Origin: a virus
Strand: one strand, 5' to 3'
IMG/VR virus record: IMGVR_UViG_3300005613_002762
Location: 62,001-126,000 of that record
DNA length: 64,000 nt
Part shown: positions 7,736-62,372 of the stretch, piece after piece
Position numbering within the stretch: position 1 is the first letter of the stretch
Layout of the letters: every line of letters begins with the position of its first letter
Notes under the pieces: model-generated
What the model was told of the DNA's origin: nothing
Databases searched by the model: none
The model's input: only the letters and a program-made list of their open reading frames with translations
Program-made: the position numbers and the translations under genes

Positions 7736-8623
7736 ATGATTAAACTTAACCAAGAATATTTTAACTCACCTTATTATTTTTATTTAAAAGATAAGGGTAG
7801 TAAAATTAATGTATATTACTCTGTATCGGAAACTATTGTCGAATCAAGAAAAAATGATGACGTTGTTGTTATTGATAAAAAAGATTTTGAAGATATCCAA
7901 AAAATGATTTCTAAAATTATGAAATCAGGAAAAAAATTAACAAAAAACCAAGTTCATAAACTTTTAGATTCCAAATCACAATCAACACAAAAACCTGATG
8001 GTGAATTAGGTGAGTTAGTTAATCCTGACGGGTCATTGATGGGGTCAAGTATTCCGATTTTAAATCAAAGAAATTTGGCAAAGAAAACTACAGACCAAAC
8101 GGTTCGTATGACAAAGGCAAATCAATTTCCATTTATTCGTGTTTATTATGGTGAAGGTGAAGAGGTTGATGGTAAATTATTAGATGAGGTTGACCAATCT
8201 GAATCATTTGGTTTTGAAGAAACTGAAGACGCTCCCACATATGATGTTGCGAACAAAATATTAAAAAAGATGGGTGTTGAAGATCCGTTTGAAAGAAATG
8301 AACGGTTAGAAAGATTAGGTTTTGATAGAAAATTAGACAAAGAATTAAAATACGAAAAGAAAAGAGGTGAATGTAAAAATTGTTTTACAAAAAGACGTTT
8401 ATCGGAACTTGAAAAACAAAAAATGGAAAAAATGATTGACGAGATATTATTATCAAAAAAATCAAAAGACAAAGAAGTTGTTAAAAAAACAAAAGAATCT
8501 AATGACGATGATAGTGTTATGTCAAAATTGTTAATTCGAAATATTGAGGCAATTAAAAAATTGGCCGATAGAGAAAACATAAGTATAGATAAGTTAGTTA
8601 AACATTTGAAACAAGGTGAATAG
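7736..8623 (+). CDS. Phage protein of unknown function, charged
   Basis: A 295-residue, Lys/Glu-rich protein, first gene of a plus-strand group of five. The N-terminus (MIKLNQEYFNSPYYFYLKD) looks folded. Residues about 95-110 are polar and Gly-rich, and the C-terminal half is helical and charged, with a single CKNCF pair. No catalytic motif is recognised. The late-type motif 13 bases upstream and the setting between tail genes suggest a virion or assembly role, which is inference only. Confidence 0.5.
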   Translation: MIKLNQEYFNSPYYFYLKDKGSKINVYYSVSETIVESRKNDDVVVIDKKDFEDIQKMISKIMKSGKKLTKNQVHKLLDSKSQSTQKPDGELGELVNPDGSLMGSSIPILNQRNLAKKTTDQTVRMTKANQFPFIRVYYGEGEEVDGKLLDEVDQSESFGFEETEDAPTYDVANKILKKMGVEDPFERNERLERLGFDRKLDKELKYEKKRGECKNCFTKRRLSELEKQKMEKMIDEILLSKKSKDKEVVKKTKESNDDDSVMSKLLIRNIEAIKKLADRENISIDKLVKHLKQGE

Positions 8624-54271: not shown

Positions 54272-55303
54272 ATGGATCTAAATAAATTTAAAGAACTTCT
54301 TTCAGTCCCGTCTAAAACTTATCAAGAAGATAGAATGGTTAATTATCTTATTGATGAACTTTCACAAATTAACGGGATTGAGGTGGTCTGTGATGAACAT
54401 AACAATATCTATGTCACCAAAGGAACATTAGATGAAGGTGAATTTTACCCAATGTTTATCTCACACACCGACACGGTTCATAATATCGTTGATGAAATTA
54501 TAGTTAAAGAAGAACACCTTCTTCGTCCTTATACATTCGGAAAAGACTTTGGGTCTGAACAAGTATTATGTTTAAAGGCTTACGATAAAGATGACAAACC
54601 AACTGGTATTGGTGGTGACGACAAATGTGGAATCTTTATTTGTTTAGAATTACTTAAACAATTAGACAAAGTTAAGATCGCATTTTTTGTTTCAGAAGAA
54701 ACAGGATGTCATGGGTCAAAAATGGTTGATTTAAACTTTTTAAAAGATGTTGGTTATTGCTCCCAATACGATGCACCTGGTGATCACTTGATTTCATATA
54801 GTTGTATGGGAACCGTGTTATTTGATGAAAACTCTGAGTTTTTTGATGTCGCATATAGATCCATTTCAGAAGGTTTTAAAAACGAAATGATGGTTCAAGC
54901 TCACCCATATACAGATATTATGATGATTAAACAAAAATCAAATCTATCTTGTATTAATATGTCTTGTGGTTATTACAACATGCACACATCAAATGAGTTT
55001 GTTTGTATTTCTGATGTTGAGAGAGCAATTGTTGCAGGAAAAAACATGGTTGATAATTTGGGTTTAAAAAAATATGAATTTAGATCTGAACCAAAATCAA
55101 CAACAACCACAACAACTTTATTTGATTTTGAGGATCAGGATCCATTTTACGATGAGGTTCATCAACTTACATCTATTGATGTTATTGAGGATAAGGATGG
55201 TATTGTAATTGTTGATTTCTACGACGACAATAAATTCTATATTGACGATGAAGATGGTTATAAATTATACGAGATTTTAAAGAACCGTTATTCTTTAGAT
55301 TAA
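54272..55303 (+). CDS. M20-family metallopeptidase (peptidase T-like)
   Basis: A 343-residue protein. MFISHTDTVH carries the first metal His/Asp, GIGGDDKCGIF the bridging Asp, FFVSEETGCHGS the Glu pair, QYDAPGD another metal acid, and YYNMHTSNEF the final His. This is the complete di-zinc set of M20 aminopeptidases/tripeptidases. A Thr run near residue 282 leads into a small acidic C-terminal part. It would hydrolyse short peptides in the cytoplasm. It has its own host-like promoter, next to secreted-protein genes. Confidence 0.85.
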   Translation: MDLNKFKELLSVPSKTYQEDRMVNYLIDELSQINGIEVVCDEHNNIYVTKGTLDEGEFYPMFISHTDTVHNIVDEIIVKEEHLLRPYTFGKDFGSEQVLCLKAYDKDDKPTGIGGDDKCGIFICLELLKQLDKVKIAFFVSEETGCHGSKMVDLNFLKDVGYCSQYDAPGDHLISYSCMGTVLFDENSEFFDVAYRSISEGFKNEMMVQAHPYTDIMMIKQKSNLSCINMSCGYYNMHTSNEFVCISDVERAIVAGKNMVDNLGLKKYEFRSEPKSTTTTTTLFDFEDQDPFYDEVHQLTSIDVIEDKDGIVIVDFYDDNKFYIDDEDGYKLYEILKNRYSLD

Positions 55304-56454: not shown

Positions 56455-56485
56455 TTGAATAATACAAATCTTTGTATTATATTTG
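56455..56485 (+). promoter_or_regulatory. Promoter of the tmRNA gene
   Basis: TTGA, 19-bp spacer, TATATTTG. The expected start is about 30 bases before the mature 5' end, so a short leader would be removed by processing. Confidence 0.6.
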
Positions 56486-56522
56486 TATTATAGTTCTTTG
56501 AAAATAGTCATTTAAGATATAT

Positions 56523-56941
56523 GGGCCTATATCGGATTTGACGGGCGTTGGTTGGATAAAAGAAGCATGTAGGGACTAAGTTAATCTCTTTAAAAACTGA
56601 CTTAGAAAACAACTGGCAATGTGCTAAACAAAATGGAAACTCTTGGTTTACTAAGAGGTTCTGAAGTTACTGTAGCTTAATAAGATACGGAAACGGGGGG
56701 TCGGTCAGACAGATAACCTAGCAACAGAAGTCGTAGATGAGTTGGTTTTCACTCTAAAAGAAAACAACGGTCTCGTTCAGAGGGCTACCGTAACAAAAGT
56801 GAACTCGACACAGTTTTTGGTAACAATGTCAAAATAGGAACCAAATATTTTGGAAGGTATGAAAAACCTTAACCTAAACATGTAGTTGTCTTTTTGACAA
56901 AACGAGCCGGACGAGGGAGTCGGAGCCCTCTAGGTCCACCA
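56523..56941 (+). ncRNA. ssrA: tmRNA with atypical, long tag
   Basis: The 5' end GGGCCTA pairs with TAGGTCC before the encoded ACCA at the 3' end (56938-56941), a full acceptor stem. The GATTTGACGGG segment after it and the late AACATGTAG, then GGACGAGGG, are typical of tmRNA. The tag frame ends at tandem TAA stops (56678-56683). Reading back, the in-frame tag from a likely GGC resume codon at 56615 is 21 residues, starting GNVLN and ending GSEVTVA. Typical tags are about 10 residues and end in ALAA. It tags proteins on stalled ribosomes; the different tail may send them to another protease. Confidence 0.9.
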
Positions 56942-56945
56942 ATTG

Positions 56946-56977
56946 ATCCCATCATTTAATTATGATGGGATTTTTTT
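56946..56977 (+). terminator. tmRNA terminator
   Basis: ATCCCATCAT and ATGATGGGAT form a perfect 10-bp stem with a 6-base loop, followed by seven T residues, five bases after the encoded CCA. Confidence 0.9.
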
Positions 56978-57022
56978 ATGCATTAAAATTATTGTGTATT
57001 TGATTGTGATTTTTTTGAGCAC

Positions 57023-57046
57023 AAAAAAAGGGACAACTAAGTCCCT
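57023..57046 (-). terminator. Terminator of the large RNA
   Basis: AGGGAC and GTCCCT form a 6-bp stem with a 6-base loop, with seven T residues following on the minus strand. Confidence 0.75.
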
Positions 57047-57989
57047 AAATGTTTTTGCCGGTCGCTCCATCTTTTTAAAAAAGAAACGCTGAGATTACAC
57101 GTTTGTTGCGAGAACCTTTAGAGTCATTATTGTTTCTACTCTTATCCACTTTCTTTTGGAAAGTATTTCTCAGTGTTGGTTATTTAGGTGAACCACTCCT
57201 TGAGATCTTATCTACACTCTTACTACTTGACTCTCTTCGAGGATGCCTCCCCAACTCGTCCTTGCGGGATTAGAGATCTTTGGTAAAAATACACTTGGTC
57301 TTGGGAACCTCATGTGCCACGGACAGCCCGTGACTAAGTAAACACCTTTCGACAAGATCTGACAGACACTTTTCCTTATTTTATTAATTAATTTGACTTA
57401 ATACAATAGTCATAAGTTTGTGTCGTGGATTATCGAAGTAGTGGTCTGCCAACCGAGCCAACCCATTTTTTGAACGAGTCGATACTCAACTACTCCGTGA
57501 AATGTCCCCATTTCCATATTTCAAGACTACTTCGAAACTAACCCCTTGGTAGAAGTTGGTTAAGGTTAGTAACGACACCACTCGTACACTAACATACCTT
57601 TCGGCTTTAAGTATCCTTTTATATTGGGAAACGCAATAATGAAATCGGATAATCTCATGTTTTGCAATATCCCTACGAGTTATTCCTATTGTTGTTCCCA
57701 ACTCAACTGAACGACCCACATCGCCCAATCATCTAACCACTTTCCCTACAGCGTTGCCCTCGGTACTAAAGGTTAAACGGTATCCCGCTTGTGTACTCAA
57801 GCTCCTAAAAGAAGCCGCAAATCATCTAACACAAATGACTCACTTTATCCTACTTTCGTAGTTTATTTTATGGACCATACACAGCCCAATATCTTTATCA
57901 TTCAAAGATGGAAATTTTATTCCAATTACTTGTCAAAGAATCTGACAAAACTTTTCCTGAACGGATAATCTATTTCTTCAAAGAACGTT

Positions 57990-58003
57990 TCGGACTTTTC
58001 CGA
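57990..58003 (-). other. Small hairpin near the 5' end of the large RNA
   Basis: TCGGAAAAGTCCGA on the minus strand, just downstream of the proximal promoter. A matching TCGGAAACAACCGA hairpin (58075-58088) follows the distal promoter, so promoter plus hairpin are duplicated 84 bases apart. Confidence 0.55.
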
Positions 58004-58012
58004 TTTGTTTTA

Positions 58013-58043
58013 CAAAGTTAAGACATTTATTTTGATCTGTCAA
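58013..58043 (-). promoter_or_regulatory. Proximal promoter of the large RNA
   Basis: TTGA, 19-bp spacer, TAACTTTG on the minus strand; same geometry as the tmRNA promoter. Confidence 0.65.
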
Positions 58044-58096: not shown

Positions 58097-58127
58097 CAAA
58101 TGTAAAAAACTTTTTTTAATTATTCAA
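58097..58127 (-). promoter_or_regulatory. Distal promoter of the large RNA
   Basis: TTGA, 19-bp spacer, TACATTTG on the minus strand. Its TTGA overlaps the final codons of the 58-residue gene at 58116-58292. Confidence 0.6.
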
Positions 58128-58348: not shown

Positions 58349-59017
58349 TTAAAGAACTTTTTTCATGATTTCTTTAATTCTTACCACATCTTCATTTACA
58401 GATTCTTTTTTCAAACTCGCAATCCCTTTGAAAAAATCGGTCATTGGTCCTAAATCGAACAATTGAAAATCATCGTCACCCCCAAAATCTATCTTTTTAT
58501 CGGTGTCATCTTTTTTTTCATCGTCAGAAAAATCGTCCGTTTCAATTTCATTACTTTTACCACTGAAAATTGACTTAGAATTTTTTAATAAATCTCTTAA
58601 GTGTTTACCAAAAGGAAGACCAATATGGACATGAGTCATTTTATCGTGACCAACCCATTCAGAAACTACACCTATTCTATCACCAACTTTGACTTTATCA
58701 CCAGCACTTAATTTAACATCTTTAAGGTGTGTATAAAAAATTTCAGGAAATCCATCCGTTCCTGAAACTGTGACTTGAGTTCCATATATTTTACCTGAAT
58801 TTTTTCCTGTATCTCTAACTTTTTTGACCGTTCCATTTGTGTATGAATTAACAACCGAACCTGCAGGCGCAAATACGTCCCAAGCATTATCTGATTGCCA
58901 ATTCCCTAAAGCTCTTGATCCGTGATTTTTTGGACCATTTTCTAAATCGGTACGAAATGGACCACCTATATTGGTTGAACCTTCAGATATTATTTTTTTT
59001 GAAGTATTTCTATTCAT
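58349..59017 (-). CDS. M23/LytM-like metallopeptidase
   Basis: A 222-residue protein. NAWDVFAPAGSVV (metal Asp), EIFYTHLKDVKLSAGDKVKV, GDRIGVVSEW and MTHVHIGLP (HxH) give the M23 lysostaphin-type fold; the usual first His of the HxxxD motif is Asp here (DNAWD), so activity needs care. M23 enzymes cut peptidoglycan cross-links. A Lys/Asp-rich linker and a short C-terminal helix (DVVRIKEIMKKVL) follow. The start MNRNTSKKIISE followed by GSTN fits a prohead-protease leader. It may be a packaged entry enzyme or the lysin. Confidence 0.78.
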   Translation of the reverse strand: MNRNTSKKIISEGSTNIGGPFRTDLENGPKNHGSRALGNWQSDNAWDVFAPAGSVVNSYTNGTVKKVRDTGKNSGKIYGTQVTVSGTDGFPEIFYTHLKDVKLSAGDKVKVGDRIGVVSEWVGHDKMTHVHIGLPFGKHLRDLLKNSKSIFSGKSNEIETDDFSDDEKKDDTDKKIDFGGDDDFQLFDLGPMTDFFKGIASLKKESVNEDVVRIKEIMKKVL

Positions 59018-59061
59018 AAGTTTGGATCTTATAGACTTATTTTAATATAAATACTTCTATA

Positions 59062-59532
59062 TTATAAAAACCATTCAGGGATATCTCTATTTTTCCATTT
59101 ACAAAAATCTTTTTTTGCTCCTACGTAATAATTTCTGTATGATTGTATTACATCACCAACTTTATATTCGTCAGGCATTGCCTTTGGTGGTGTGGTGAAG
59201 TCTTTATCAACAATATCAGGTTTATTCATTAAACACCATTCAATCACATCTTGAGATTTATGACGTTTTCCATAACGATATGTATATTCCTTACACAACT
59301 CTAATCCAAGATCACAAAGGTATAAGTAATTAGATAAACTCTCACGAGTCCATATAGCACATGGGTGATTTTTGTGAGATAACTTGTAGGGTACTTGGGG
59401 AGTAACTTGGGGGGTCATATGATGAACACCACACAGAAGTTGTGCTGTTTCCAATATCATTTTAACCACATGTTTATCACAATGGTATTTAGCACATTTT
59501 TTGGTGTCAAAATCTAAAAAGAAAATATTCAT
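59062..59532 (-). CDS. Conserved phage protein of unknown function
   Basis: A 156-residue protein. MNIFFLDFDTKKCAKYHCDK, HVVKMILETAQLLCGVHHM, KNHPCAIWTRESLSNYLYL and EYTYRYGKRHKSQDVI are strongly patterned, with conserved His, Cys and Trp residues, and resemble a protein found in many T4-like phages whose function I do not know. The conserved polar residues suggest an enzyme. A host-like promoter lies just upstream. Confidence 0.65.
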   Translation of the reverse strand: MNIFFLDFDTKKCAKYHCDKHVVKMILETAQLLCGVHHMTPQVTPQVPYKLSHKNHPCAIWTRESLSNYLYLCDLGLELCKEYTYRYGKRHKSQDVIEWCLMNKPDIVDKDFTTPPKAMPDEYKVGDVIQSYRNYYVGAKKDFCKWKNRDIPEWFL

Positions 59533-61798: not shown

Positions 61799-61881
61799 AA
61801 GTCAGGGTAGGATTCGAACCTACAATGAGCAACCATCTATAACAGATGGATTCAACACCATGTCTCTTTACACTCCTGACC
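61799..61881 (-). tRNA. Atypical tRNA, anticodon uncertain
   Basis: Acceptor GGTCAGG pairs with CCTGACT (one G-T) and the T-arm GTAGG-TTCGAAT-CCTAC is standard. The anticodon stem CCATC/GATGG is perfect, but encloses TGTTATA, so position 33 is G rather than the near-universal U, and the triplet is TTA, which would read UAA. A GTT (Asn) reading needs a poor stem. The D-arm is also unusual. It may be degenerate, or a suppressor-type tRNA. Confidence 0.55.
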
Positions 61882-61978: not shown

Positions 61979-62008
61979 ATTTAACAAATCTTTCTTTAAC
62001 TTTTTTTG

Positions 62009-62164: not shown

Positions 62165-62340
62165 TTTATTTGTAGTTAAGTAGTTGACACACACTCTCGT
62201 TTCACCATCTTATGTCAACAGGTTAATGCACTTAACGAGTTTCCCTTTTCTTACCACCACAATATTTTAAATCAAAGAACTTTTTCCCTCTCGTGTGGGG
62301 GTGAGTCCACCATCACATTTTCTCACCCCCGTTTGTTTTA
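62165..62340 (-). ncRNA. Structured leader upstream of the tRNA cluster
   Basis: Between the promoter at 62341-62372 and the first tRNA there is no ORF but three perfect helices: GGGGGTGAG/CTCACCCCC (62297-62330, 9 bp), GTTAA/TTAAC (62222-62236) and GTTGACA/TGTCAAC (62183-62219). It may be a separate small RNA processed from the tRNA precursor or a leader guiding tRNA maturation. Confidence 0.5.
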
Positions 62341-62372
62341 CAAATATAAGAACTTTATTTTAATTTACCAAA
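62341..62372 (-). promoter_or_regulatory. Promoter of the tRNA cluster
   Basis: TTTG, 20-bp spacer, TATATTTG on the minus strand, a perfect consensus match; it overlaps the end of the gene at 62360-62698. Confidence 0.75.

Follow-up and report, generated by a model that had tools for sequence, protein, structure and literature searches.

A GOLLD RNA gene with a boxA-like leader and a linked small protein gene in a virus related to T4-like Bacteroidota phages

GOLLD RNAs are encoded in phages and prophages, often near transfer RNA (tRNA) genes. The env-38 GOLLD was resolved by cryo-electron microscopy (cryo-EM) as a hollow 14-mer RNA cage (PMC12286853), with a less conserved 5' domain in which a conserved GAAA loop was named L11a (PMC12286853). 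In the same 2025 paper, pull-downs are reported to show ribosomes binding to GOLLD, and tRNAs are put forward as its cargo (PMC12286853). According to a study as cited in PMC7567579, GOLLD is dispensable for producing a Lactobacillus brevis prophage. Another large phage RNA without an open reading frame (ORF), the abundant noncoding RNA of ~800 nucleotides (nt) of phage ICP1, was likened to GOLLD and ROOL in the study describing it (PMC7567579), where it is not assigned to GOLLD. Here we describe a GOLLD gene of ~1 kb on the minus strand of a 64,000-nt stretch (the window; positions 62,001 to 126,000) of the virus record IMGVR_UViG_3300005613_002762. It resembles ICP1 RNA in being a large ORF-less phage RNA; unlike ICP1, this phage carries tRNAs.

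With respect to the Rfam family RF02032 and env-38, the locus shares the full 3' domain, a variable 5' domain with a GAAA-loop hairpin, a length near 0.8–1 kb and a phage location near tRNA genes (60.8–62.2 kb in the window, within a virus record of 149,190 bases). It differs from env-38 in that this clade of Bacteroidota phages has a boxA leader, a convergent transfer-messenger RNA (tmRNA) gene and a linked small protein gene. Comparison of the 5' domains is at the level of overall architecture, since the domain described here lies outside the Rfam model and is not matched residue by residue to the env-38 cryo-EM chain, the GAAA hairpin and L11a included. An open-access literature search, which did not cover the original 2009 description, returned no paper in which GOLLD is connected to boxA or to a linked protein; as far as could be checked, the boxA leader, the small protein family and the tmRNA convergence are apparently unreported.

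Identity and structural conservation of the RNA

The gene beside tmRNA is a GOLLD RNA, neither a ROOL nor a representative of a new class. The RF02032 model matches positions 57497–57086 of the minus strand over its full length (model positions 1–416) with 308.3 bits and E = 7.9e-89, at twice the gathering score of 150. The initial annotation, made from the sequence before any database search, had offered two options, membership in the GOLLD/ROOL class or a class of its own; the first stands and the second does not, the RNA being a new member of the known GOLLD family. When the large-RNA Rfam models were run on the minus strand, as that annotation had suggested, GOLLD alone matched. Its account of the gene boundaries also agrees with our results: both duplicated minus-strand promoters, each of the form TTG-N20-TAnnTTTG, the terminator at the other end and the neighbouring tmRNA were recovered (Table 1), and a start near 58008, predicted from the proximal promoter, yields an RNA of the proposed size of ~985 nt. 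The helices it offered as examples fared unevenly. The one at 57318–57332 is a real GOLLD hairpin, whereas the other two find no support: the bases of 57476–57487 are used by another helix of the GOLLD model, and in place of the long-range pairing of 57420–57426 with 57572–57578 there is a covarying local hairpin at 57584–57573.

Two DNA patterns derived from the 3' domain retrieved 107 loci among viral contigs, of which 98 match this GOLLD; the other nine were chance matches without GOLLD and were set aside. Full-length relatives range from 91% identity down to under 70%. Though it lies outside the Rfam model, the 5' half recurs in conserved form across dozens of contigs from related phages, while its length and helices differ among the 50 different sequences aligned, in line with the structured and less conserved 5' half of GOLLD. 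Predicted folding of the RNA was better than in 20 of 20 shuffles (z = -2.9). Among 102 base pairs in the 5' domain alignment, 72 show compensatory change, confirming the covariation that the initial annotation had asked of phage homologues. Of the alignment cells, 97.6% are paired (shuffles, 85.7%) and 614 carry changes on both sides of the pair (shuffles, 162); none of 500 shuffles reached the observed values. Sliding the partner strand by one base reduced pairing to about 43%, a control that is biased in favour of the structure because it was derived from the same alignment, although the margin is very large. The GAAA-loop hairpin at 57861–57850 is conserved and its stem covaries.

The closest relatives of the large terminase among isolates belong to T4-like Flavobacterium phages (25% identity), and a large T4-like phage of Bacteroidota is the best explanation for the origin of the gene. 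GOLLD was also found in the huge phages LR745206 and LR756502. Scanning bacterial genomes with a pattern yielded eight hits, and among the seven checked there was one GOLLD (Mycobacterium).

Promoters and the boxA-like leader

The consensus of the primary sigma factor of Bacteroidota is TAnnTTTG with an upstream TTTG (PMC7366714), and both promoters upstream of GOLLD are of this type. This explains why a sigma-70 promoter scan showed no excess over shuffled sequences (10 vs 7.4). Host-type promoters are compatible with, though no proof of, the high expression early in infection that the initial annotation had inferred. In several relatives (L055, L059, L088, L103 and others), units of promoter plus leader stand in tandem upstream of GOLLD, with up to four TAnnTTTG promoters and short conserved stretches between some of them.

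Downstream of the proximal promoter, GTTCTTTGAA begins at 57986, following the leader hairpin at 58003–57990. The octamer GTTCTTTG is present in all 58 relatives of this type that have the upstream region, and two Acinetobacter phages in the list lack it. Within the window, the motif recurs at the equivalent position ahead of the tmRNA (56493) and of the tRNA cluster (62280). Only two further sites exist in the window; both lack a promoter of this kind and are located inside long ORFs or antisense to them. In ~0.96 Mb of related loci we found 98 distinct GTTCTTTGA sites, 83 of them at GOLLD (60), tmRNA (14) or tRNA (9) leaders, compared to a median of 9 and a maximum of 41 sites for permuted 9-mers. 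The exact GTTCTTTGA also occurs in 9 of 21 ribosomal RNA operon (rrn) leaders of Bacteroidota, the likely host phylum, against 0.03 expected, and several of the other leaders carry a variant. The tmRNA leaders of relatives use the variants GTTCATTGA and GTTCTTTAA, both of which are likewise found in rrn leaders. Among the huge phages, LR745206 has the motif at its GOLLD.

We take this motif to be the counterpart of boxA in Gram-positive rrn leaders, which reads TGTTCTTTGAAAACT in Bacillus subtilis. The match to rrn leaders together with the leader context makes a strong case that the motif is boxA. As in rrn leaders, it closely follows the promoter, in many cases with a hairpin on its 5' side (the boxB-boxA order), at the head of a long untranslated RNA; here, however, that RNA is a phage RNA. 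Recruitment of the rrn antitermination complex in E. coli requires boxA and needs nothing beyond it, and the boxB hairpin precedes boxA in rrn (PMC10250234). The motif may well work as boxA at GOLLD.

The linked small protein gene and neighbouring stable RNAs

Directly upstream of GOLLD lies a gene of a new small protein family (45–58 amino acids, aa) that occurs in 75 loci. Apart from the window's copy there are 74 hits, in loci originally selected for GOLLD; every one of them is the immediate upstream neighbour of GOLLD and shares its strand, and none are elsewhere; among loci with enough upstream sequence (700 nt), 68 of 78 have the gene. A GOLLD-blind search by the protein alone gave 52 loci, 51 of which have the 5' domain of GOLLD immediately downstream; the exception is a contig that ends at the ORF. 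This search used single proteins as queries. Some of the 52 contigs are shared with the first set and all are rather closely related, hence the counts are not independent. The median ratio of nonsynonymous to synonymous substitution rates (dN/dS) is 0.43, with dS near saturation, and the small ORF is therefore a real gene. Neither Pfam nor PHROG provided a family for the window's copy, with scattered weak matches only across the set, and no credible match was found in phage records. AlphaFold predicts a strand-strand-helix-strand fold with a mean confidence score (pLDDT) of 77, for which a fold search in PDB and viral models gave no match at E ≤ 0.001.

The linkage suggests that the protein probably acts on or with GOLLD. 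That the ORF merely keeps a stable place beside GOLLD and has nothing to do with its function is given only somewhat less than an even chance: it has its own promoter in many loci, and its absence from 10 of the 78 loci shows that GOLLD can do without it. Against such a neutral position stand the exclusive adjacency of the 74 hits and the recovery of GOLLD in the blind search.

The tmRNA gene converges with GOLLD and ends in a terminator at 56945–56972. It was missed by ARAGORN and is recognized by its RF00023 match with tRNA-like ends. Within the fetched stretches, tmRNA was found in 56 of the 98 GOLLD loci (53 convergent, 3 on the same strand); in many of the remaining loci, little sequence follows GOLLD before the contig or the fetched stretch runs out. 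The tag frame, GNVLNKMETLGLLRGSEVTVA (21 residues, with the resume codon placed by the model alignment), is open and similar in relatives with synonymous changes (e.g., GNVINKLSAVGLVRTEEVAVA in L056). The tag ends in VA, not in the usual LAA, which might protect tagged proteins from ClpXP. In locus L110, a group I intron match (8253–8474) overlaps the 3' end of the tmRNA match, and the tmRNA gene there may contain an intron.

Between the boxA-like motif of the tRNA cluster and tRNA-Phe, ~120 nt (62290–62164, minus strand) with complementary segments are conserved in 10 other loci and possibly form a small RNA. A tRNA-like sequence at 61880–61799 on the minus strand (GTCAGGA...TAGGTTCGAATCCTACCCTGACTTC) was called by neither ARAGORN nor Rfam. 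Protein genes on both sides of the locus (54272–55303 and 58349–59532) include an M20/M42-like peptidase, an M23 peptidase and a pyrimidine-dimer-glycosylase-like protein.

Table 1. Features of the GOLLD locus and related leaders (window coordinates)
Feature	Coordinates	Strand	Evidence
GOLLD RNA gene, predicted transcript ~985 nt	57023..58008	-	promoter, terminator, Rfam match, covarying homologues; 5' end placed from the -7 box
Conserved 3' domain of GOLLD (RF02032 model in full)	57086..57497	-	308.3 bits
GOLLD 5' domain, outside the Rfam model, with covarying GAAA-loop hairpin	57498..57970	-	50-sequence alignment
GOLLD intrinsic terminator, hairpin 57046-57029 followed by 7 T	57022..57046	-	sequence
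boxA-like motif GTTCTTTGA	57978..57986	-	related GOLLD loci, tmRNA and tRNA leaders, Bacteroidota rrn leaders
Leader hairpin TCGGAAAAGTCCGA, immediately 5' of the boxA-like motif	57990..58003	-	both stem strands vary together among homologues (TCAGG..CCTGA, CTTGG..CCAAG); some homologues lack the hairpin
Proximal promoter TTG-N20-TAACTTTG, Bacteroidota type	58013..58043	-	sequence; TAnnTTTG box at the same place in nearly all homologues
Distal promoter TTG-N20-TACATTTG	58097..58127	-	sequence; 1-4 such promoters in homologues
Small protein gene, 58 aa	58116..58292	-	new family directly upstream of GOLLD; dN/dS 0.43
tmRNA gene, convergent with GOLLD	56523..56941	+	RF00023, 73.1 bits vs 47, full model, CCA end
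tmRNA promoter TTG-N20-TATATTTG and boxA-like GTTCTTTGA (56493-56501)	56455..56501	+	sequence
tRNA-cluster leader: promoter TTG-N20-TATATTTG, hairpin, boxA-like GTTCTTTGA (62280-62272)	62272..62371	-	sequence

A possible stable-RNA regulon

We propose the following scenario. Host RNA polymerase would start at either of the two host-type promoters and transcribe boxA within about 20 nt, which by its sequence would recruit NusB/S10 as on ribosomal RNA genes. Antitermination would then let the untranslated RNA of ~985 nt be completed and fold, and GOLLD copies may assemble into a multimeric cage, by analogy with env-38. The common leader type would join GOLLD, tmRNA and the tRNA cluster in a single stable-RNA regulon that serves translation while the phage infects its host. 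The neighbouring small protein would act on or with GOLLD. Taken together, this combination of a Bacteroidota-phage GOLLD, boxA antitermination, a cage, a stable-RNA regulon and a partner protein appears to us a probable explanation of the locus.

Several observations weigh against this scenario. Many of the loci are close relatives, and the counts do not represent independent events. No boxA was found in the GOLLD leaders of Acinetobacter, Mycobacterium and Streptococcus phages, nor in that of one of the two huge phages, and the motif is therefore a feature of this clade, not of GOLLD. In addition, pairing is conceivable between CGAAG at 57534–57530 and five bases of boxA (CTTTG), and a closing helix might explain part of the conservation. 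Taken further, GTTCTTTGA would be the 5' strand of a helix closing the 5' domain of an ordinary GOLLD with ordinary transcription. Indeed, RNAalifold pairs CTTTG with CGAAG in all sequences; compensatory changes, however, are near zero in that helix and many in its neighbours, the GTT and GAA outside the helix are equally conserved, and the motif also precedes tmRNA and tRNAs, where the GOLLD partner strand is absent. We consider this explanation unlikely and retain boxA as the favoured reading of the motif.

A translated or decayed protein-coding stretch is a far less probable account of the region. The longest internal ORF (80 aa, 57486–57728) is open in the window, yet it is broken by in-frame stops in 35 of 49 homologues, on which ground a coding origin was rejected; moreover, substitutions preserve the helices. 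The initial annotation's statement that there is no credible ORF thus holds, and the conserved ORF that it had named as evidence against an RNA gene was not seen. Least probable of all is ROOL or another giant RNA family, which would be alike in length and likewise near tRNAs and is refuted at the sensitivity used, since GOLLD was the sole match and no ROOL, OLE or other large RNA family appeared among the Rfam models up to E = 1.

The leaders and the gene order shared with tmRNA and tRNAs suggest that GOLLD acts on or beside translation. A bolder version, in which the Bacteroidota-phage GOLLD is the core of a dedicated ribonucleoprotein, combining a nanocage RNA, rRNA-type antitermination and its own small partner protein, and is co-regulated with tmRNA and tRNAs to take over translation, is a tentative idea that we rate as rather doubtful. 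The boxA-like leader is one handle on GOLLD function: if correctly interpreted, it would explain how a phage avoids premature termination when it synthesizes a kilobase of RNA that is not translated. Because tmRNA and tRNAs have the same leader type, GOLLD is linked to them and hence to translation. With GOLLD cages solved in 2025, a protein gene found only beside GOLLD offers a direct handle on GOLLD function.
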